Below are positions 10,899-39,554 of a DNA stretch of 64,000 bases, piece by piece. The notes under the pieces were generated by a model that worked only from the letters and a program-made list of their open reading frames with translations, made no database searches and had not been told where the DNA came from. This DNA is from an uncultured Arthrobacter sp. Lineage in GTDB: Bacteria > Actinomycetota > Actinomycetes > Actinomycetales > Micrococcaceae. The translations under genes were made by a program, and so were the position numbers. The stretch spans positions 1-64,000 of the forward strand of contig NZ_CANLXP010000009.1 in the NCBI RefSeq assembly GCF_947495145.1. Direction: 5' to 3'. The first letter of the stretch is position 1; every line of letters starts with the position of its first letter.

Positions 10899-12395
10899 CT
10901 AGAACTTGTTCGCGGCCTCAGCGTCCGAGTTCTGTGCGGCGCCCGACGCGCTGCCAAGGTTGGCGCGAAGCTTCGCACCAAGGTCGGCATCTACGTTGGT
11001 CCAGTACTGGATAGCGCGCTCGCGGATCTCATCGATGGTCACGCCGCTGACCGCACCGGTGATGTTCTCCAGGAAGCGGGCCTTCTCCGCGTCGTTGTAG
11101 ACCTCGCGGTACAGTGTGCCTGCCTGGCCGAAGTCGTCGTCCTCGGTGTGGAGGGTGTGGGCAGCACGCACCAGGTCGCCGTCGTTCTCCCAGCCGCCCT
11201 CAGGACCGGTCAGGGACGGGTCAGCAGCGGGGCCGCCCATGGAGTTCGGCGCGTAGACCGGGGTCTGCGGCGAATTGAAGAAGAAGCGTGAGTCGCCGTC
11301 CTTGGAGTAGTTGCGCACCTCGCTCTTCGGAGCGTTGACGGGCAGTTGCGCATGGTTGGTGCCCACACGGTAGCGGTGCGCGTCAGCGTAGGAGAAGATG
11401 CGAGCCTGCAGCATCCGGTCCGGTGAAGCGGCGATGCCTGGAACGAAGTTCGACGGCGCGAAGGTAGCCTGCTCGATCTGCGCGAAGTAGTTCTCCGGAT
11501 TGCGGTCCAGAGTCAGCTTGCCGACCGGGATCAGCGGGTAGTCAGCGTGCGGCCACACCTTGGTGAGGTCGAACGGGTTGAACCGGTAGTTCTTCGCATC
11601 CTCATACGGCATGACCTGAACCTTGAGATCCCAGCTGGGGAAGTTGCCCTGCTCGATGTTCTCGTAGAGGTCGCGGATGTGGTGGTCGGCGTCCGAGCCG
11701 GCGAGCGCCTCAGCCTCATCCCCGGTCAGGGTCTCGTGGCCCTGGTTGGACTTGAAGTGGTACTTGACCCAGAACTTCTCGCCGGCCTCGTTGATCCACT
11801 GGTACGTGTGTGAGCCGTAGCCGTTCATGGTGCGCCAGGAAGCCGGGAGGCCCCGGTCGCCCATCAGCCAGGTGACCTGGTGTGCCGACTCGGGGGAGAG
11901 GGTCCAGAAATCCCACTGCATGTCCGCGTCACGCAGATTGGAGCCGGGAAGGCGCTTCTGCGAGTGGATGAAGTCGGGGAACTTGATGCCGTCGCGGATG
12001 AAGAACACCGGGGTGTTGTTACCCACGAGATCGTAGTTGCCCTCAGAGGTGTAGAACTTCAGTGCGAAACCGCGGGGGTCGCGCCACGTATCGGGAGAGC
12101 CCTGCTCGCCTGCAACGGAGGAGAAGCGAAGCAGCGTCTCGGTCTTGACGCCCGGCTGGAAAAGGGCTGCCTTCGTGTACTTGCTGACGTCCTCGGTGGC
12201 CTCGAACACGCCGAAGGCGCCGCCGCCCTTGGCGTGCACAACGCGCTCGGGCACGCGCTCGCGGTTGAACTGGGCGAGCTTCTCGATCAGGTAGTGGTCA
12301 GTCAGCGGAATGACGCCGTCGCGGCCCAGAGCCGAGGAATTGCTGTCGTCGACAACCGGCGCACCCGATTGGGTGGTGCTGAAGTTTACAGTCAT
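10899..12395 (-). CDS. katA: Haem catalase, small-subunit type
   Basis: A 498-residue monofunctional catalase that disproportionates hydrogen peroxide. The distal histidine is H54 in [12 protein letters not shown]. The substrate-channel region has [20 protein letters not shown]. The proximal haem ligand tyrosine lies in [14 protein letters not shown]. The length fits the small-subunit (clade 3) group. The start at 12395 is chosen because GGAG precedes it and family members start at this point; an upstream in-frame extension has no catalase similarity. It lies 14 nt downstream of the Fur-family gene in the same operon. Confidence 0.95.
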
Positions 12396-19386: not shown

Positions 19387-19468
19387 GGCAGATTACCCGA
19401 GCGGCCAAAGGGGGCTGACTGTAAATCAGCTGGCACAGCCTACGGGGGTTCGAATCCCTCATCTGCCA
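19387..19468 (+). tRNA. tRNA-Tyr (GTA)
   Basis: An 82-nt class II tRNA. The acceptor arms are GGCAGAT (19387-19393) and ATCTGCC (19461-19467). The anticodon GTA is at 19421-19423 in a CTGACT...AATCAG stem, with a long variable arm and the T-loop TTCGAAT. CCA is not encoded. A TAAAGT box at 19317-19322 may be its -10. It is the integration site of the following element, and its sequence is intact. Confidence 0.95.
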
Positions 19469-19489
19469 CTCGCCACGAAGGCCCGCACT
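19449..19489. repeat. attL, 41-bp attachment core
   Basis: Identical over 41 bp to 27267-27307. It starts in the tRNA T-loop, includes the 3' end of tRNA-Tyr, and continues into the left arm of the tRNA terminator. This is the typical footprint of tyrosine-integrase insertion. Confidence 0.92.
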
Positions 19490-19519
19490 TCCTTGCAATT
19501 ACAGGGAAAGGCGGGCCTT
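19478..19519 (+). terminator. tRNA-Tyr terminator rebuilt at attL
   Basis: AAGGCCCGC (19478-19486, chromosomal att core) pairs with GCGGGCCTT (19511-19519, supplied by the element), followed by TTGCTTT. Compare the intact 17-bp stem terminator at attR. Confidence 0.7.
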
Positions 19520-19527
19520 TTGCTTTG

Positions 19528-20658
19528 TCAGGCGGGGCTGTTTGCCCACATTTTGCCCACACTTGAGAGCGAAACAGCCTGATCTAGGGCGTCTGAAACA
19601 GCGTTCAGGTCCTCGTCGAAGAGATCCGCGTAGATGTCCAGTGTCATCGCGGCCGAGCTGTGGCCGAGCATCCGCTGAACGGCTTTCACGTTCGCCCCTG
19701 CCGAGACAGCGAAGCTGGCAGCGGTGTGCCGTAGATCGTGCGGTGTGATGCGGGGCAGGCCGGCACGGCGCACCGCGCCAGTGAACCAACCGCCGCGGTG
19801 CGCCTGCACGCGGGTGGAGCGGAGGTAGCCGGCCCCGTCCTCGCCAGGGAATACCAGATCATCGCGCCCCTTGCCCTCGCATTGCTTTGCCAGTCGTTCA
19901 GCCAGGAACCGGGGAAAGGGCACCGTCCGTCGTTTGTGGTTCTTCGGAGTTCCAACGGCGACGCGGCCGCCGACCTCGACGGCGTTCTCCTCAACGCTGA
20001 TGCGGCGCTTGAGCATGTCCAGGTGTCGCACCCGCAGCGCTACCGCCTCGCCCCACCGCAGGCCGCAGTAGGCAAGCACGAGCACGAGCGTGCCGTGCTT
20101 CGCCTCATCAGCGAGAGCGTGTACCTGCTCATGGTTCAGGTAGATGTGCGGTTTGCGTCCCTTCCTGGGCAGATCCACGCCGCGGATAGGGTTTGACGTG
20201 ATCCGGCGATCCTCCGCGGCGTCGTCCAGGATTCCCGCTAGGACTCCATATGCGCGGATTACCACGGTTGCCGACTTCGGCTTGCGCTCGCCGTTGCCGG
20301 TCGTGAGCTCCGCAATCCACTGCTGTACGGCCGTCTTGCGGATCTCCGAGACGCTGTGTGCACCCCAAACAGGCAGGACGTGGTTCCGCAGCGCGGCTTC
20401 CACCGTCCGGAATGACGACGGCTTGAGATGCGTCTGCCGGCCGAGCCACTGCGGCCCAAGCTCGCCTATGGTTGCTCTGCCTGCCTGCACCTCGATGTAC
20501 TCGCCCTTGAGCTTCGAGACCTCGACCGAGGAGGCGAACGCCTCCGCCTCCCTCTTGGTCCGGAACCCCCGCTTGTCCGTCTGCTTCCGGTCCGGCCGGC
20601 GGTAGCGCACCCGGTACCGCCGGCCGCTGGCGGTCTCGTAGGGCTCAATCGTCGCCAT
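19528..20658 (-). CDS. int: Tyrosine site-specific integrase
   Basis: A 376-residue phage-type integrase that recombines attP with the tRNA-Tyr attB. An arm-binding N-terminus (about 1-55) is followed by a core-binding SAM-like domain (about 65-160) and the catalytic domain. Catalytic residues are visible: R201 (GLRWGE), K239, H307-R310 (HDLRH), H333 (LGH) and Y343 (DIYADLFD). The gene's 3' end runs through the left arm-type sites, which encode the C-terminal KMWAN. It overlaps the repressor gene by 14 nt, so both are expressed as one leftward operon. Confidence 0.95.
   Translation of the reverse strand: MATIEPYETASGRRYRVRYRRPDRKQTDKRGFRTKREAEAFASSVEVSKLKGEYIEVQAGRATIGELGPQWLGRQTHLKPSSFRTVEAALRNHVLPVWGAHSVSEIRKTAVQQWIAELTTGNGERKPKSATVVIRAYGVLAGILDDAAEDRRITSNPIRGVDLPRKGRKPHIYLNHEQVHALADEAKHGTLVLVLAYCGLRWGEAVALRVRHLDMLKRRISVEENAVEVGGRVAVGTPKNHKRRTVPFPRFLAERLAKQCEGKGRDDLVFPGEDGAGYLRSTRVQAHRGGWFTGAVRRAGLPRITPHDLRHTAASFAVSAGANVKAVQRMLGHSSAAMTLDIYADLFDEDLNAVSDALDQAVSLSSVGKMWANSPA
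19543..19563. repeat. Left arm-type integrase sites (TGCCCACA x2)
   Basis: TGCCCACA occurs at 19543 and 19554, 11 bp apart. The whole 21-bp block is identical to 27153-27173 at the other end of the element. The symmetric placement just inside both att cores suggests integrase arm sites. Confidence 0.6.
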
Positions 20659-21148
20659 CGCTGCGCTTCCCCAGCTGCTTAGTCATATTTTCCAGCGTCC
20701 GAGCCAGCTCCTGCAGATGCTCGACAGTGAGATCAGTATCGGTGCCCGGAAACTGTCGCCCGGGCGGCCGCGCGTGCAGGACGAATGACGTGATGCCGTG
20801 TTCATCATCGCGCCAAAACGGGCGGCGTCCGTCTGCCCAATCCCACACACGTTCCAAGGATTGACCTCGCCCGGCTCCCGTTGGCTCATACTCAGTCTCG
20901 TCGTCAGCGGGCGGGAATAGGAGCGCGTTCGGGTTGACATCAAAGATGAGGGCGAGGGCGAGCAGCTCGTCAACATCGACGCGGCGCTCGCCGGCCTCTA
21001 TCCGGCGGAGACCCAGCGGTGGTATGAAGCGCTTCCGGTCAGCGAGCCACCGGGAAAGCTCTGCGTAGGACGTGGATCCGCGCAGCCTGCGGATGTTCTC
21101 CGCCACGGTGCGCCCAGTGGGTCCAAGATCGAATTCTTTGCCTGCCAT
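20645..21148 (-). CDS. XRE-like repressor of the element
   Basis: A 167-residue protein with an N-terminal helix-turn-helix (about residues 10-70): VAENIRRLRGSTSYAELSRW, then RRIEAGERRVDVDELLALAL. The C-terminal part ends in a short coiled region, HLQELARTLENMTKQLG. The ATG at 21148 is chosen because homologous repressors begin near MAGKEFDLGPTGR. It lies divergent from the excisionase gene across an array of GATCA sites, consistent with a lysogeny repressor. It probably also represses itself. Confidence 0.83.
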   Translation of the reverse strand: MAGKEFDLGPTGRTVAENIRRLRGSTSYAELSRWLADRKRFIPPLGLRRIEAGERRVDVDELLALALIFDVNPNALLFPPADDETEYEPTGAGRGQSLERVWDWADGRRPFWRDDEHGITSFVLHARPPGRQFPGTDTDLTVEHLQELARTLENMTKQLGKRSDGDD

Positions 21149-21163
21149 GGCGTAAACGGTACA

Positions 21164-21289
21164 GATCAAACATGAAGATACCAAGATCATTCTTGATCTC
21201 ATCCGCTGACTGTGGTTTTATGAGTGCAACGCGATCAAAAATAGAGATTGCGGGATCAAAACGAAAGGATGGCGGGATCATGCTTGATC
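21164..21289. promoter_or_regulatory. Phased GATCA operator array between repressor and excisionase
   Basis: GATCA starts at 21164, 21185, 21233, 21254 and 21276, with spacings of 21, 48, 21 and 22 bp. Two of the copies are full palindromes with a 4-nt spacer: AGATCA/TGATCT at 21184-21199, and GATCA/TGATC at 21276-21289. The latter overlaps the excisionase ATG at 21280. The regularity at about two helical turns suggests cooperative repressor binding. Confidence 0.65.
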
Positions 21290-21477
21290 TCCTCACACCG
21301 GAAGACCTCGCTCAGCGGCTGGGCATGTCCGTCGCCGCGCTTTCCCAGTGGCGCTACAGGGGAGTAGGCCCCAAGTTCATCAAGGCCGGCAAAACCATCC
21401 GGTACCGAGTTTCCGACGTCGAGTCATGGATGGACGCCCAGACTCGGCAGCAGAGCGGCTCAGCAGTTGGAGCCTGA
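21280..21477 (+). CDS. xis: AlpA/MerR-like helix-turn-helix excisionase
   Basis: A 65-residue protein of the small winged-helix excisionase type. LDLLTPEDLAQRLGMSVAAL, then SQWRYRGVGPKFIKAG, then RYRVSDVESWMD is the standard pattern. Such proteins bend DNA at att sites to favour excision, or activate element genes. The ATG at 21280 overlaps an operator palindrome, so repressor binding would directly block its expression. An in-frame upstream Met at 21220 would lie within the operator array and is less likely. Confidence 0.85.
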   Translation: MLDLLTPEDLAQRLGMSVAALSQWRYRGVGPKFIKAGKTIRYRVSDVESWMDAQTRQQSGSAVGA

Positions 21478-23082: not shown

Positions 23083-23135
23083 CCGTCCCGATGCTGAACC
23101 AACCCCACGAGCAGGCGAAAGGAGGAAGAGCCCCC

Positions 23136-23633
23136 TTGAAACACTCATGGATACTGACCGCGATTGTCGCTGCCTTCGGGATTGTGCGCCGCCTGGTCAC
23201 TCGTGAGACCCCAGACCATCTAGCAGCAGTCGCCCGCACCGTCGAGCAGCCGCCAGCTGTGCGCTCGCAGGCAACGGAAGTAACACCCGGCCAGCAGCCC
23301 ACGCCGGCCGCTCCAGTGTGCTCGCAGGCAACGGAAGCAACACCCGGCCCGCGTACGCCGCAGACGCGCCAGACGGCCCGTAGGAGAGTCACCGAGCGCC
23401 CATTGTTCTCACGGCCGCGCGGGCCTCCTGGCAGCGCTCTGCAGAGCTCAGCAGAATCCGCAGGACGCCAGACTACGGGCGCTAGCGCAACCGGGTACGG
23501 GGAGGGTCGGGGCGGGTATAGCCAGAAGGCGCGGGAGCGCCTCAGCTGGCACACGCTGAGACTACGAACTTCCCCAGGTCTCGCCACCTTGAGTGACGCT
23601 GGGACTAGCAGCAGGTCTCGCCACCTTGAGTGA
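23136..23633 (+). CDS. Possible membrane-anchored repeat protein
   Basis: An open frame of 165 codons. The TTG at 23136 has a strong AAAGGAGG site upstream. The predicted N-terminus, KHSWILTAIVAAFGIVRRLV, looks like a membrane anchor, followed by low-complexity Pro/Thr/Gln sequence with two QATE(V/A)TPG repeats. Its last 58 nt run into the 37-bp tandem repeats, and an opposite-strand frame is also open. No family is recognised. It could be non-coding repeat DNA. Confidence 0.35.
   Translation: MKHSWILTAIVAAFGIVRRLVTRETPDHLAAVARTVEQPPAVRSQATEVTPGQQPTPAAPVCSQATEATPGPRTPQTRQTARRRVTERPLFSRPRGPPGSALQSSAESAGRQTTGASATGYGEGRGGYSQKARERLSWHTLRLRTSPGLATLSDAGTSSRSRHLE
23263..23359. repeat. 30-bp direct repeat, two copies
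   Basis: 23263-23292 and 23330-23359 differ at one base, with a 67-bp period. They encode the QATE(V/A)TPG repeats of the possible protein at 23136-23633. Confidence 0.75.
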
Positions 23634-23679
23634 CGCTGGGACTAGCAGCAGGTCTCGCCACCTTGAGTGACGCTGGGAC
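23576..23679. repeat. 37-bp tandem repeats (2.8 copies)
   Basis: Identical units at 23576-23612 and 23613-23649, plus a 30-nt third copy at 23650-23679, each starting AGGTCTCGCCACC. Directly repeated units in a non-coding stretch near a recombinase resemble iterons or partition sites. There are no spacers, so it is not a CRISPR array. The stretch 23634-23850 holds no convincing gene. Confidence 0.9.
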
Positions 23680-23695
23680 CCGGATCGAGATCTGA

Positions 23696-23740
23696 TATCA
23701 GCACTGAAACCACTGTGGTATCAGCACTGAAACCACAGTG
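23696..23740. repeat. 18-bp direct repeat with an embedded inverted repeat
   Basis: TATCAGCACTGAAACCAC occurs at 23696-23713 and 23719-23736, 5 nt apart. CACTGTGGT (23711-23719) and ACCACAGTG (23732-23740) form a 9-bp inverted repeat across the second copy. With the 37-bp repeats it forms a compact repeat cluster that looks like a protein-binding locus or origin. Confidence 0.8.
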
Positions 23741-23850
23741 AAAAGGTCTCCTCGCGTGCGCGGGTGATCGCGCGGGCGCTGGCAGGGCAGGGCAGGGTTT
23801 CTTACTGGGTTAAGCGCTACCACTCACCAGCTCAACTGATTGGATTCACC

Positions 23851-23925
23851 ATGAGCCACACCATGAGCCACACCATGAGCCACACCATGAGCCACACCAG
23901 GCAATCACCAAGGCGGGCAGGCTGA
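23851..23925 (+). CDS. 24-codon (MSHT)4 leader ORF
   Basis: Four perfect 12-bp units, ATGAGCCACACC, at 23851-23898, each carrying its own ATG. The frame continues with RQSPRRAG, and its TGA overlaps the ATG of the next gene by 1 nt (TGATG). This suggests a translated leader coupled to the zinc-ribbon gene. No ribosome site is obvious, so translation is unproven. Confidence 0.4.
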   Translation: MSHTMSHTMSHTMSHTRQSPRRAG

Positions 23926-24182
23926 TGCCAACACAACCGCCAGCCGGTCCAACCTGTGGCAGATGCCGCAGGGTCCGAGATCCCCGCCTGATGCAATCCG
24001 AAACGCTCTGCCTCGAATGCGCCCGAGATCCCGACTGGATGGTTGGACCAGGCAGAGCAGCGGTGCGCCAAGCGCTCGCCGGCTACAGGGAAAAACGCCA
24101 CCGTGACGACCGCGAACCACAGAGACGACGGCGCATCTCCCAGGGGATGCTCCCGCAACAGCAGGAAGGACAGACCTCATGA
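23925..24182 (+). CDS. Small zinc-ribbon protein
   Basis: An 85-residue protein with a CxxC-X14-CxxC zinc ribbon (C11, C14, C29, C32) and a basic, Arg-rich C-terminal half. Similar short phage proteins bind nucleic acid or partner proteins. It starts at a TGATG junction with the (MSHT)4 ORF and overlaps the next gene by 4 nt, so it belongs to a coupled operon leading towards the capsid gene. Function not known. Confidence 0.6.
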   Translation: MPTQPPAGPTCGRCRRVRDPRLMQSETLCLECARDPDWMVGPGRAAVRQALAGYREKRHRDDREPQRRRRISQGMLPQQQEGQTS

Positions 24183-24385
24183 GCGCCCAGTCATATCAAG
24201 CCGCAGCCGGCGGATTCCTTGACGCCGCCGCATTGCTCACAGCTCACGCGAATGACGACCGGGCAGGGCTGGCCCGGATGATCGCACGCATGAGCCGTGA
24301 CGAGCTCGAAGCAGCGATAGTGGGCTTGCTCGGCGCGTTCGAAGCAATGCCGCGACACGACGTCGAGGAACCAGGCCCACAATGA
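24179..24385 (+). CDS. Small helical element protein, unknown
   Basis: A 68-residue Ala-rich, probably all-helical protein: GGFLDAAALLTAHANDDRAG, then MIARMSRDELEAAIVGLLGA. It overlaps both neighbours by 4 nt. The pattern resembles short phage proteins of unknown role. No function is assigned. Confidence 0.55.
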   Translation: MSAQSYQAAAGGFLDAAALLTAHANDDRAGLARMIARMSRDELEAAIVGLLGAFEAMPRHDVEEPGPQ

Positions 24386-24615
24386 CCGCCGAGCGTCATC
24401 CGGTGCTGATACGCTCTAGCACAGAAAGCAATCGCCATACGTTTCAGCTGAGACAAGGACGAGGAACCCCGGCGGGGGTCAAGTCCGAGGATCGAAGCGA
24501 AGAACGGGTCGTGAGGAAACTTTCTGACAGGCCATCGGTAGCCAACCCGCCCGCCAGTCGTAGCAAACCCGGACGCAAGCTCCGCCAGCCGCTCCCGCAA
24601 GCGGCCGTAGCGTAG
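24382..24615 (+). CDS. Doubtful small basic ORF
   Basis: A 77-codon frame that starts in a 4-nt overlap with the previous gene. The product is basic, with no fold visible. Most of it lies in sequence rich in nested hairpins, so the region may work as RNA rather than as a protein. Either reading is weak. Confidence 0.3.
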   Translation: MTAERHPVLIRSSTESNRHTFQLRQGRGTPAGVKSEDRSEERVVRKLSDRPSVANPPASRSKPGRKLRQPLPQAAVA

Positions 24616-24653
24616 AGCATCGCCGGGATGCAAACCACATTCACTTTGTGTGG
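24457..24653 (+). ncRNA. Candidate structured RNA before the capsid gene
   Basis: Several complementary segments occur in order: GGAC/GTCC (24457-24460, 24483-24486) enclosing ACCCC/GGGGT (24466-24470, 24475-24479); CGGGT/ACCCG (24505-24509, 24545-24549) enclosing GGC/GCC (24530-24532, 24541-24543); GCCGCT/AGCGGC (24588-24593, 24600-24605); CCACA/TGTGG (24635-24639, 24649-24653). GC-rich DNA gives chance pairing, so this is tentative. It matches no RNA family recognised here. Confidence 0.3.
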
Positions 24654-24707: not shown

Positions 24708-25979
24708 ATGTCAAAGCTCAAGACCCTCCAAGACGCAGCCCGCGCGGAAGCCAAAGCAGCACGAGAGATCGCGGAAAAGGCCCACACGGAAAGCCGCGAT
24801 CTCACCTCAGATGAGCGGGCCAGTTTCAAAGGACACCAGGAAAAAGCACGCGCCCTCTTCCCACAGATCGAGCAGGCCAAGGCAGATGAGGAAATCATCG
24901 CGGCATCCAAGGCGCTCGCCGACGGTATCGGCGGGCCGTTCGGTGTCAGCCGGCGCGATCTTGGCCGCAAGGGCTGGGCCAATGAAACCGTGAAGTCGCT
25001 GCGCGGATCCATGACCGATCAGCGCGGAGCCGGCATCAAGGCTCTCGTGTCCGGCACGATCGGCGTTGCCAACCCCGTAGGCGACGGCATCACGACGGAC
25101 GGCGCTGCGCCTCGCACCATCCTCGATCTGCTCCGTGGGGAATCACCGGAAGATCTGGCCCGCGTCGGCATCGGCGTGGGTGACCCCGACAAGCCGGGGT
25201 CAGTCCTGTACCAGTCTGCCGAGCAGCTGGCATCCTCGCTGTTCGGTGGGGACGGCGGCGGCTCGAATACGTTCTCGTACCTGCGCCAGATTGTCCGCAC
25301 GAACAACGCCGCGCCGGTAGCTGATAACGCACTCAAGCCGACGTCGATCTACACCGTGTCCGAGATCGAGGACCGCTACCGCGTGATCGCTCACCTGTCG
25401 GAAGCGATCCCGCAGCGGTACTTCCATGATGACCGCAGCCTTGGCGAGTTCCTGGCTTCCGAGATGGCTCTTGGGCTTGAGTGGGAAGTCGAAGCGCAGG
25501 CGCTCTCGGGCGACGGCACGGGGGAGAACCTCACAGGCATTCTCTCCACATCTGGCATTCAGATACAGGCCTACGCCGCCGATCTGCTCACAACCACGCG
25601 GCAGGCGCTGACCAAGCTGCAGGTGCGCGGCATGACGCCGACCGCCTGGGCGGTAAACCCCGCAGACGCGGAGAAGTTCGACCTCCTGCGTGAAGGCACC
25701 GGAGACGGCGCGTTCCTCCTGGGCGGCCCAGGCAGCGGCGCAGCGTCGAGCCTGTGGACGATCCCGCGCGTGCCCTCGAACGCTGTCCCTGTCGGTACTG
25801 CGGTGCTTGCGGACTGGACGCAGGCGAGACTCCAGGTGCGGCAGGACGCGACGCTGCACGTCGACACGAGCGGCGAGCTGTTCAAGCAGAATCAGGCCAT
25901 CTTCCGAGTCGAGGGCCGCTTCGGACTCGCTGTGAAGCGACCCAGCGCGTTCGTGAGCGTTGACCTGACGGCCGCGTGA
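24708..25979 (+). CDS. HK97-fold phage major capsid protein
   Basis: A 423-residue major capsid protein. Residues 1-75 form the charged, helical delta (scaffold) domain. The HK97 core follows from about residue 110, with the family signature ALSGDGTGENLTGIL at residues 265-279 and the hydrophobic C-terminal axial-domain strands. The ATG at 24708 has AAAGGGGAAA upstream; 20 in-frame codons before it are not typical. It is full length and intact. No prohead protease, portal or terminase gene is present in the element, so it must assemble without them or borrow them from a helper phage. A strong hairpin follows. Confidence 0.93.
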   Translation: MSKLKTLQDAARAEAKAAREIAEKAHTESRDLTSDERASFKGHQEKARALFPQIEQAKADEEIIAASKALADGIGGPFGVSRRDLGRKGWANETVKSLRGSMTDQRGAGIKALVSGTIGVANPVGDGITTDGAAPRTILDLLRGESPEDLARVGIGVGDPDKPGSVLYQSAEQLASSLFGGDGGGSNTFSYLRQIVRTNNAAPVADNALKPTSIYTVSEIEDRYRVIAHLSEAIPQRYFHDDRSLGEFLASEMALGLEWEVEAQALSGDGTGENLTGILSTSGIQIQAYAADLLTTTRQALTKLQVRGMTPTAWAVNPADAEKFDLLREGTGDGAFLLGGPGSGAASSLWTIPRVPSNAVPVGTAVLADWTQARLQVRQDATLHVDTSGELFKQNQAIFRVEGRFGLAVKRPSAFVSVDLTAA

Positions 25980-26078: not shown

Positions 26079-26190
26079 CCCCTAGGGGGGGTCTGAATCC
26101 CTGGGAAAAATCGGGCTAGTCTACTTCGCCCGGTAGTGGCCTCCCCCTCCCCGTACCCCCCACCCCCCTTACGATTTGGAGGCGTCGGAA

Positions 26191-26494: not shown

Positions 26495-27142
26495 ATGGGT
26501 GATGCTGAGCTGTATGGAATCTTCGAGACTAACCCCCAGCCGGTAGGTAACCTTGTCACAGTGGCACAAGCCGAGGAAATGGAAGCGTTCGGCCACCCTT
26601 GGCCGGTCTCCGGCGATCTGAGCGTTTTGCAGCCCATCCGGCGCCCACTGCGCCAGCTGACCGCCACAGGAGCCGCCAGGGGCGTTCCGCGCTCGCAGCT
26701 CACCATTGGGCGGTGGATGCTACTCTGGCTCGATCTCGTAGACGAGCAGGCGGCGACAGAGGGCGAAATCTACACGGGCACCGATCGCCATATACTTCGA
26801 GAGACAGCCGCAGGCCGCGCCCGAATGTTTCTCCTGGGACGCCGGCAACAGGTCACCGAATACCTCATCCCGCAGCTGCCGGAGTTACTCCTGTTCGACC
26901 TCAACGAATCCGACGTCGAGGAGCTGGCCGCGTCCCTGTTGGCAATGAAGGGCAAGAGGGGGAAGCCGCTCTCAAAGAGCACCGTGCAGTCAGTGCTGAC
27001 GCATCTCAAGCGGGCGCTGTCCGCCGCTCAACGAGAGGAGCTGATCGACTCGAACCCGGCCCAGGGTTTCGCCCGGTATCTCGGCCTCAAGGATCAATCT
27101 CGCGAGCGGTGGATGAAGTATCGCGAGCAGCTCTCTGCCTGA
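26495..27142 (+). CDS. Protein with an integrase core-binding-like domain only
   Basis: A 215-residue protein. Residues about 115-190 (LIPQLPELLLFDLNESDVEE, then KPLSKSTVQSVLTHLKRALS, then DSNPAQGF) match the pattern of the SAM-like core-binding domain of tyrosine integrases. The frame then ends: there is no catalytic Arg-His-Arg-Tyr domain. The first 110 residues are not recognised. It could be a truncated integrase or a dedicated DNA-binding accessory. It lies next to the right arm sites, which suits a role at attR. Confidence 0.7.
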   Translation: MGDAELYGIFETNPQPVGNLVTVAQAEEMEAFGHPWPVSGDLSVLQPIRRPLRQLTATGAARGVPRSQLTIGRWMLLWLDLVDEQAATEGEIYTGTDRHILRETAAGRARMFLLGRRQQVTEYLIPQLPELLLFDLNESDVEELAASLLAMKGKRGKPLSKSTVQSVLTHLKRALSAAQREELIDSNPAQGFARYLGLKDQSRERWMKYREQLSA

Positions 27143-27182: not shown

Positions 27183-27266
27183 TTTGGATGCAATCAGAGT
27201 GATCTAGAGCAACTGAAAACGGCTTATTTCCGGGGTTTTGGTCGCTGACCTGCGCTGATGAGAGGT

Positions 27267-27307
27267 TTCGAATCCCTCATCTGCCACTCGCCACGAAGGC
27301 CCGCACT
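27267..27307. repeat. attR, 41-bp attachment core
   Basis: Identical to attL. The adjoining 27257-27281 forms a dyad, GATGAG.GGTT / AATCC.CTCATC, around the T-loop sequence. This looks like the pair of core-type integrase sites carried by attP. Confidence 0.92.
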
Positions 27308-27335
27308 CCCCGGAAAAACGGGGAGTGCGGGCCTT
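27296..27335 (+). terminator. Original tRNA-Tyr terminator, now at attR
   Basis: A perfect 17-bp stem (27296-27312 with 27319-27335) and a GAAAAA-type loop, followed by TCGCTTT. Its left arm overlaps the att core. In the empty chromosome it would lie directly after tRNA-Tyr. Confidence 0.8.
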
Positions 27336-37637: not shown

Positions 37638-39554
37638 ATGCCTGAAAACCTGTCCCCTGACGTTACTGCCACTCCTGAAACCGAAACTCCGGATGTGAAG
37701 TTCACCGACTTCAACCTGGACGGCCGCGTGCTCGCCGCTCTTTCCGACGTCGGCTACGAAAAGCCCTCACCCATCCAGGCCGCAACCATTCCGGCACTGC
37801 TGGAAGGGCGCGACGTCGTCGGTCTCGCGCAGACCGGAACCGGCAAGACCGCAGCGTTCGCTATCCCCGCGCTCTCCAGAATGGCGGAGCTCGCTGACCT
37901 CAACGGTCCCGCCAAGTTCACCCAGGTCCTCGTTCTCGCTCCGACGCGTGAGCTCGCGCTGCAGGTCGCAGAGGCGTTCGCCTCCTACGCCAAGCACATC
38001 GACAACTTCACCGTGCTACCGGTCTACGGCGGATCCGCGTACGGCCCCCAGCTGGCAGGCCTTCGCCGCGGCGCACAGGTAGTGGTCGGCACCCCCGGCC
38101 GCGTCATCGATCACCTGTCCAAGGGATCGCTGGACCTGTCCAACCTGCAGTACCTCGTGCTCGATGAAGCTGACGAGATGCTGCGCATGGGCTTCGCCGA
38201 CGACGTGGAGCAGATCCTCGCAGGTACCCCGGAGGACAAGCAGGTTGCGCTGTTCTCGGCGACCATGCCGAGCGCCATCCGCCGCATTGCACAGAAGTAC
38301 CTGAACAACCCGCAGGAAATCACGGTCAAGTCGAAGACCACCACCGGCGCCAACACCCGGCAGCGGTTCCTGCAGGTCATGGGCCCGCACAAACTCGACG
38401 CGATGACGCGCATCCTTGAGGTCGAGGACTTCGACGGAATCATTGCCTTCGTGCGCACCAAGATGGCCACTGAAGACCTGGCGGACAAGTTGCGTTCCCG
38501 GGGCTTCCAGGCTGCTGCCATCAACGGTGACATTCCCCAGCAGCAGCGTGAGCGCACCATCGAGGCATTGCGCGACGGCAAGATCGACATCCTCGTGGCA
38601 ACGGACGTAGCAGCCCGTGGCCTTGATGTTGAGCGCATCTCCCTCGTGGTCAACTACGACATCCCGCATGACACCGAGTCCTACGTTCACCGTATCGGCC
38701 GCACCGGCCGCGCGGGCCGTTCAGGCGATGCCATCCTGTTCATCACCCCGCGTGAGAAGTACCTGCTGCGTTCTATCGAGAAGGCAACGCGCCAGCCGGT
38801 CGAGCAGATGCACCTGCCCTCCACCGAGGCCGTCAACGAGCTGCGCCTGAACAAGTTCGCGGAGCGCATCACCGAAACCCTCGCCACTGAGGACGTCTCA
38901 ATCTTCCGCGACCTGATCGCCAACTACGAGAACGAGCACAACGTGCCCGCCGCGGAGATCGCCGCAGCGCTTGCCGTCATGTCCCAGGGCGGTAATCCCA
39001 TCCTGGTCAAGGACATCCCGCAGGCACCGGCAGGCCAGAAGGAGCGCGCAGGCGGACGCAAGGATGCCTTCGGCTCCCGCGGACCCACGCGCACCCTCAC
39101 CGAGGGCAACGCCACCTACCGCATCGCGGTCGGCCGTCGCCAGCGCGTGATGCCCGGTTCCATCGTTGGAGCTATCGCCAACGAAGGTGGACTGTCGTCG
39201 TCGCAAATCGGCGGAATTGACATCCGCGCGGACCACACCCTGGTGGAGCTCCCTGCTGAGCTCTCCAAGGACCAGTGGCGCGCGCTGTCCAAGACCCGCA
39301 TCGGCGGCGAACTGATCCACCTCGAGCTGGACAAGGGACGGCGCCCCAACAGCGACCGCCCCGCCGGCGACTTCAAGAAGCCGCACCGCAAGGGTGAGGG
39401 CTACCGCGGTGACCGCGGACACGACGGCGGCTTCCGCGCCGAGCGCTCCCACGACGGCGACTTCCGGTCCGACCGTGGAGCGGCCTCAGGCGAGCGCAAG
39501 CCGCGTCACCAGAAGGGCGCAGGCGCCGGTAACGGACGCCGCGAAAAGTGGTAG
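37638..39554 (+). CDS. deaD: DEAD-box RNA helicase, CsdA/DeaD type
   Basis: A 638-residue ATP-dependent RNA helicase that helps ribosome assembly and mRNA decay, often at low temperature. Visible motifs: AQTGTGKT (Walker A), PTREL, GTPGR, DEAD, SAT, and HRIGRTGRAG. After the two RecA domains comes a DbpA-like RNA-binding domain (about 480-560: RIAVGRRQRVMPGSIVGAIA). The disordered Arg/Gly/Asp-rich tail has repeats of (H)DG(G/D)FR. The ATG at 37638 has GAAGG 11 nt upstream. An upstream in-frame frame is open but not conserved-looking. Confidence 0.95.
   Translation: MPENLSPDVTATPETETPDVKFTDFNLDGRVLAALSDVGYEKPSPIQAATIPALLEGRDVVGLAQTGTGKTAAFAIPALSRMAELADLNGPAKFTQVLVLAPTRELALQVAEAFASYAKHIDNFTVLPVYGGSAYGPQLAGLRRGAQVVVGTPGRVIDHLSKGSLDLSNLQYLVLDEADEMLRMGFADDVEQILAGTPEDKQVALFSATMPSAIRRIAQKYLNNPQEITVKSKTTTGANTRQRFLQVMGPHKLDAMTRILEVEDFDGIIAFVRTKMATEDLADKLRSRGFQAAAINGDIPQQQRERTIEALRDGKIDILVATDVAARGLDVERISLVVNYDIPHDTESYVHRIGRTGRAGRSGDAILFITPREKYLLRSIEKATRQPVEQMHLPSTEAVNELRLNKFAERITETLATEDVSIFRDLIANYENEHNVPAAEIAAALAVMSQGGNPILVKDIPQAPAGQKERAGGRKDAFGSRGPTRTLTEGNATYRIAVGRRQRVMPGSIVGAIANEGGLSSSQIGGIDIRADHTLVELPAELSKDQWRALSKTRIGGELIHLELDKGRRPNSDRPAGDFKKPHRKGEGYRGDRGHDGGFRAERSHDGDFRSDRGAASGERKPRHQKGAGAGNGRREKW

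Follow-up and report, generated by a model that had tools for sequence, protein, structure and literature searches.

The nearest mechanistic precedent for the locus described here is SaPIbov5, for which capsid redirection has been demonstrated. As described (PMC8569155, PMC5052747), SaPIbov5 holds the cos site of phage phi12 and encodes Ccm, a delta-domain HK97 homologue that is 24% identical to the phi12 CP; Ccm forms the pentamers of T=4 procapsids, makes no capsids alone and blocks phi12. In Mycobacterium, candidate PICIs, including phiRv1 and phiRv2, were defined by an integrase and a major capsid protein (MCP) (PMC10654092). According to that description, members with a tyrosine integrase lie at tRNA genes, some members carry replication genes and some carry terminase or scaffold genes; it does not identify a helper, a cos site or a capsid mechanism.

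The element analysed here lies in the window, by which we mean the whole 64-kb stretch of Arthrobacter DNA under study. Like SaPIbov5 it is integrated and combines a helper-type cos with one delta-domain HK97 homologue of the helper capsid protein, and it would leave the other head genes to the helper. Unlike SaPIbov5, it has an Actinomycetota host, occupies a tRNA-Tyr site and measures 7.8 kb rather than about 14 kb, and its MCP is of a separate lineage with a helper-like delta domain. It shares with the Mycobacterium candidates the presence of an integration gene and an MCP in one island. Own capsid protein and borrowed tails are traits of cf-PICIs as described in PMC10690885, but these also encode protease, portal, connectors, both terminase subunits and HNH, none of which was recognised in the element. 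The Mulch and Flayer satellites of Streptomyces are likewise Actinomycetota satellites with their own MCP and, according to the same source, additionally encode terminase subunits, portal, scaffold and adaptor. PICMIs resemble the element in being very small islands with an integrase and few genes; as described in PMC10803314, they have no capsid gene, insert next to fis and use virulent vibriophages as helpers, whereas the element has an MCP.

Results

An integrated element with one recognised virion gene

The element is bounded by 47-nt repeats at the 3' end of tRNA-Tyr (Table 1), from which an excised circle of 7818 bp was computed. Its ends and integrase are intact; an earlier note made from the sequence had described ends, integrase and repressor as looking functional. 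In three genomes of the same genus (G002, G018 and G022), tRNA-Tyr directly joins sequence 90–94% identical to 80 nt at the right junction of the element, as would be expected of an empty site; beyond those 80 nt, the right flank is not conserved in the three. At the same tRNA-Tyr site, we also observed a 7.3-kb element (L128, G034:C1:656800-666200) with an ORF that is TerS-like by eye, and a 9.5-kb element (L129, G030:C1:48300-59600) with an 81% identical integrase, a repressor and an excisionase; an MCP match is absent from both.

Table 1. Features of the element and its integration target (positions in the window)
Feature	Position	Strand	Evidence or remark
tRNA-Tyr (gta), integration target	19387..19469	+	ARAGORN; Rfam tRNA
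attL, 47-nt direct repeat	19446..19492	+	96% identical to 27264-27310
Tyrosine integrase, 376 aa	19528..20658	-	PF00589 E 3.2e-24; phrog_1 E 1.1e-71
HTH repressor-like protein (start may be internal)	20645..21202	-	phrog_11503 E 1.7e-21; PF01381 below cut-off
Excisionase-like HTH (HTH_17)	21280..21477	+	PF12728 E 8.4e-11; phrog_66 E 5e-11
Small ORF, 88 aa	21585..21851	+	ORF listing; homologue absent from fetched loci
Small ORF, 102 aa	21848..22156	+	weakly similar to an L129 ORF
Second Xer-like tyrosine recombinase, 309 aa	22153..23082	+	PF00589 E 4.8e-17; akin to Maja Y-integrase, E 1e-9
Non-coding repeat region: 37-nt x3, 23-nt x2, 12-nt tandem repeats	23575..23906	+	
Small ORF, 85 aa, four cysteines	23925..24182	+	homologue absent from fetched loci
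68-aa protein, kept beside MCP in IMG/VR contig L122	24179..24385	+	62% identity over 65 codons, dN/dS 0.24
HK97-fold MCP, 423 aa	24708..25979	+	Pfam, PHROGs, AlphaFold2, fold search; dN/dS 0.13 vs L122
MCP delta (scaffold-like) domain, residues 1-78 as used here	24708..24941	+	58% identity to Maja; core 39%
Cos-like site; phage end-to-end junction at 26135/26136; core 26123-26171	26086..26176	+	79/92 columns identical to joined ends of Maja, likewise JanetJ
Small ORF, 76 aa	26191..26421	+	homologue absent from fetched loci
215-aa protein, weak integrase SAM-like match	26495..27142	+	PF13102 E 4.5e-4, below cut-off
attR, 47-nt repeat	27264..27310	+	pairs with attL

Ten ORFs of the element were compared with Pfam and PHROGs. 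The MCP is the sole virion gene recognised, and none of the ten matched a portal, protease, large terminase, tail or lysis family, as the same note had described. The excisionase-like protein weakly matches the small terminase family phrog_57 (E 1.3e-4), which looks like HTH resemblance. No structured RNA was found upstream of the MCP gene (only the tRNA reached its own Rfam threshold; fold z-score -1.55). The block 23083-24650 gave short matches only, within Arthrobacter phage genes; among these, 23286-23349 and 23695-23798 in the non-coding repeat region match, at 72–78%, genes near the right end of ~42–43-kb Arthrobacter phages (QuinnAvery, Nandita and others).

The MCP gene is an intact 423-codon ORF with a GDGTG motif and matches Pfam PF05065 (E 3.9e-25) and a PHROG major head protein (E 4.6e-32). 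An AlphaFold2 model (mean pLDDT 84.7, pTM 0.72) has N-terminal helices at residues 3-27 and 34-73, and its best PDB fold matches are the phage D3 and HK97 capsids (E 8.9e-20 to about 1e-17), which bears out the full-length HK97-fold protein with a delta domain read from the sequence earlier. The comparison with encapsulins that had been proposed placed the first of them at rank 40 (E 5.8e-10), and none occurs among the 11 sequence hits. Encapsulin identity was rejected, since both fold and sequence are closest to phage capsids. In the host genome (3.55 Mb, 57 contigs, 99.97% complete) the element MCP is the single PF05065 match, and no PF04860 portal was found, so that there is no resident helper of that type.

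Selection was estimated against an 81% identical MCP encoded on IMG/VR contig L122, where it adjoins a homologue of the 68-aa protein; a serine recombinase lies on the same contig. For this pair dN/dS is 0.13, and across 12 further pairs it ranges from 0.13 to 0.35; a value near 1 had been named in advance as evidence against a satellite. In most of the 12, evolution is faster over the first 105 codons, where dN/dS reaches 1.08 in one Streptomyces pair. The MCP is under purifying selection, which suggests a structural role.

A cos-like site downstream of the MCP gene

A cos-like site begins 106 bp past the MCP stop. The 521 bp 3' of the gene match three phage records, Maja twice and JanetJ, and each match stops at the last base of the record (78–80% identity). 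Because the first BLAST E-value was only 0.5, the case for a cos site rests on the position of the match at genome ends and on its continuation across the junction: when the last and first bases of the phage are joined, the match runs on over the junction for Maja and JanetJ alike. Its 49-nt core has one mismatch to Maja and occurs once in the window at up to 8 mismatches. The junction scores of the element were 117 for Maja and 114 for JanetJ, against 25–35 for five other Arthrobacter phages and a maximum of 38 for 175 dinucleotide-shuffled junctions. This shuffle null replaced a first background with a maximum of 107, probably an artefact of concatenated phage genomes.

Scanning IMG/VR with 28 nt of the core gave three contigs. 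One is evidently Maja itself (36,776 bp, identical TerS). In the other two, from uncultivated phages, the core lies between an HNH gene (71–75% identical to that of Maja) and genes for TerS (80–87%) and TerL (84%). The TerS proteins of Maja and JanetJ are 81% identical, while those of Jamun and LittleTokyo align over 32 residues only, so the cos type tracks the TerS type. If the deposited phage ends are the physical ends, the element would carry a cos that belongs to a single type of terminase. This site next to the MCP gene is the key part that the first reading of this DNA missed.

The search was not blind: other lone-MCP elements were examined because the window matched, and a later set of loci was added afterwards. 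Each element was scored against the same seven phage junctions, with its own 175 shuffles. Thirteen of 32 exceeded their own shuffle maximum and 19 did not. Nine did so by 7–79 points, all on the MCP strand (the window element, L024, L042, L043, L044, L045, L047, L059 and L061); the remaining four, with margins of 1–3 points (L058 and L066 by 1; L027 and L029 by 1 and 3 on the other strand), were counted as background. Most of the nine matches lie 3' of the MCP gene, but that of L024 precedes a TerS gene and that of L045 precedes the MCP gene. Against all phages, the post-MCP region of L047 had as its best match the last 55 bp of LittleTokyo (38915-38969 of 38969; E 0.03). L043 matched the left ends (bases 30-61) of 11 records of Arthrobacter phages with E 1; an internal match to Gordonia phage Malibo, which is unrelated, scored better (E 0.3). 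For the region upstream in L024, no actinobacteriophage genome end was among the best 25 of 32 records.

The later set held 12 loci (16 were fetched, four being repeats of L042-L044 and L047), seven without and five with portal or terminase matches. Three of the seven scored above the null: L131 by 10, with the match immediately 3' of the MCP, L133 by 2, also on the 3' side, and L132 by 4, on the 5' side; the contig of L134 ends 96 bp past the MCP match. Three of the five prophages also exceeded the null, two of them strongly (101 each). One of these, L144 (1230-1300; G384), is a full prophage in the same family with a divergent MCP and a Maja-type cos ahead of its terminase gene; it is possibly of the type that would be a resident helper.

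The delta domain and the core of the MCP

The two parts of the MCP differ in their nearest relatives. Residues 1-78 are 49–57% identical to nine Arthrobacter phages other than Maja and 38–42% to the lone MCPs of L042-L044 and L047, while residues 189-423 are 59–61% identical to those same lone MCPs (values for Maja in Table 1). The MCP of L122 is close in both parts (72% delta, 87% core). In paired counts against L042-L045, 20–30 delta positions agreed with Maja only and 6–9 with the sister only; for the core, the numbers were 17–23 and 64–69 (Fisher p 1.2e-7 to 3.3e-6). Within the delta domain, Maja had no significant advantage over other Arthrobacter phages (p 0.06-1), and a delta-only tree, poorly resolved and built after 16 of 65 rows had been left out, was compatible with one satellite clade (AU p 0.438). 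The delta/core contrast is real, and exchange or shared constraint would both fit it.

Lone-MCP elements as a class

We named 35 relatives in bacterial genomes. With the proteins of one Arthrobacter phage, TaylorSipht, as phmmer queries, TerS, TerL, portal and protease were matched in none of the 35 (flanks up to 10 kb; 3.8 kb in all for L046). A pair of 21–78-nt repeats surrounds the MCP in 17, usually with an integrase and in 16 cases with a predicted tRNA; 12 of these elements span 6.9–9.8 kb and five, all from Streptomycetaceae, 13.7–15.8 kb. Some relatives (L024, L057, L070) encode a small terminase.

The PF04860 portal is absent from 32 of 44 genomes. In the 12 that have it, it lies beside the MCP in G061 and G014 only, which are full prophages outside the clade; in the others, it is on a different contig or at least about 79 kb away. 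A portal and terminase beside the MCP of related elements had been named as an observation that would count against a satellite; where tested, the portal does not adjoin the MCP in clade members. Negatives of the PF03354 terminase model were disregarded, as it failed to detect the control prophages G061 and G014. Among 106 small proteins of these elements, Pfam recognised Terminase_4 in three and Terminase_6 in one, and none of all 25 Pfam families found was a portal, large terminase or protease; for PHROGs, the best 25 of 108 families were considered. Of ten larger proteins, four were replication proteins and two were tape measure proteins; the others were a TerS, a TraB-like FtsK and two that resemble regulators.

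The tree built from 62 MCPs has a branch with 100/98 support that separates 42 of 43 lone MCPs from phage MCPs. The exception, L036, is placed with the phages and is not the window element, whose MCP shares a clade with mycobacterial lone MCPs. The top-ranked phage hits of two distant clade members have 31% and 32% identity. Because lone MCPs served as queries in finding the loci, phages that belong to the clade may have escaped notice; a contig scan with a single MCP protein as query confirmed no relative.

Several members of the class have further features. Tape measure-like proteins are encoded directly or closely 3' of the lone MCP in four loci: L051 (11187-14156) and L063 (11426-13552), by PF10145, and L123 (2767-4932) and L124 (5519-8362), by tblastn; L124 also has a head-tail adaptor-like stretch. 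A satellite that set both head and tail size would be new. WhiB-like regulators occur in L030 (17018-17371) and L054 (8038-8535). The Streptomyces plasmid pWTY27 (L023) carries a satellite-clade MCP (10981-12102) beside traA and traB, and in L051 the MCP is paired with a TraB-like FtsK protein. In a 'plasmid' of Rhodococcus pyridinivorans Y6 (L024, NZ_CP096036.1, 13649 bp), a 6.8-kb element that encodes an integrase, a small terminase and a lone MCP is present twice, the copies being nearly identical; this is an extrachromosomal form, perhaps a dimer, and an assembly effect is possible.

Discussion

We consider it likely that the element is a cos-type satellite that works like SaPIbov5, with a Maja-type helper supplying portal, protease, terminase and tail. 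That it is a satellite using a helper-type cos is very probable, and we lean towards a shell mixed with helper capsid protein. The helper type can be named because the cos matches Maja and JanetJ; the element probably travels in particles built with phages of that type.

In the proposed cycle, the element would reside in tRNA-Tyr under its own repressor, for which a repressor-like gene is present. Growth of a Maja-type temperate siphovirus in that cell would be the occasion for integrase and excisionase to free the 7818-bp circle, as the two genes and the att sites suggest. The helper terminase and HNH endonuclease would then recognise the cos site of the element (26086-26176) and package between cos sites. 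The MCP, a satellite-lineage HK97-type subunit with a helper-like delta domain, would be the hijacking protein. It would join helper assembly and bias or replace the shell, in the manner of Ccm in SaPIbov5, and the helper would contribute portal, maturation protease, terminase and tail.

The HK97 genome is 39.7 kb and its shell is T=7, from which simple arithmetic gives a capacity of about 17 kb for T=4 and 11 kb for T=3. One copy of the element would fit a T=3 shell and two copies (15.6 kb) a T=4 shell; a full head would take four (31.3 kb). The two-copy circle of L024 would suit dimer packaging.

The MCP might alternatively build a complete small shell alone, with the part of the helper limited to portal, protease, terminase and tail. 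In favour of this, the full-length protein has a delta domain and the HK97 fold, and capsids of their own are described for cf-PICIs (PMC10690885), although these also encode portal, protease and terminase. However, Ccm, as described in PMC8569155, does not form capsids unaided, and with a core only 39% identical to that of Maja the shell would still have to accept the portal and protease of the helper. We regard an own shell as possible but doubtful. The earlier note had suggested a minimal satellite that makes its own shell and borrows the rest; the borrowing is supported, with the helper type now named by the cos, but a mixed shell accords better than an own one with the Ccm precedent and with the helper-like delta domain.

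It is unlikely that the element is packed as a cos concatemer in full-size helper heads, with an MCP that mainly interferes with the helper. Four copies would be about 85% of the 36.8 kb of Maja, PICMI concatemers are described as filling full-size heads without capsid-remodelling genes (PMC10803314), and Ccm itself blocks phi12 (PMC5052747). Yet PICMIs are described as lacking a capsid gene, and the purifying selection on the MCP here suggests a structural role.

The note had also raised another use of an HK97-fold protein, for example in an encapsulin-like compartment. The MCPs of pWTY27 and L051, with their Tra-type neighbours, would fit such a use, which is possible for relatives such as pWTY27. 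For the element it is very improbable: a helper-type cos lies beside the gene, the delta domain is kept, and fold and sequence are nearest to phage capsids. The small size and the short non-coding pieces resembling Arthrobacter phage genes might point to a prophage remnant in which the MCP is the last virion gene left. This reading was rejected as extremely unlikely in view of the MCP tree, the low dN/dS, the absence of portal, TerL and protease matches to TaylorSipht proteins in the 35 relatives, and the intact att ends and integrase.

For the cos-type satellite that we favour, the cos match, the MCP lineage and the delta/core contrast look new, while integrase-plus-MCP islands are already published for Mycobacterium (PMC10654092). 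Searches of open-access literature, with few subscription journals and without preprints, listed no publication that describes lone-MCP satellites in Arthrobacter, matches a helper cos to an island of Actinomycetota or recognises a capsid lineage confined to satellites. We propose tentatively, and at somewhat less than even chances, that Actinomycetota harbour an old, phylum-wide, satellite-only capsid lineage, which has its own core, a delta domain either adapted to the local helper or acquired from it, and a helper cos beside the gene; some members add a tape measure gene and may set tail length.

If true, this would be a two-part arrangement of lock and address, in which about 80 codons and some 90 base pairs let a satellite follow its helper. 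Our results suggest that the delta domain and the cos site may decide helper choice, and that satellites of Actinomycetota may commonly hijack their helpers through a capsid-protein homologue, a strategy known in detail from SaPIbov5. Naming a probable helper type, Maja-type phages growing on the laboratory host Arthrobacter globiformis, would open the phylum-wide integrase-plus-MCP islands to experiment, and annotations of a 'phage major capsid protein' in such genomes would often mark satellites rather than prophages.
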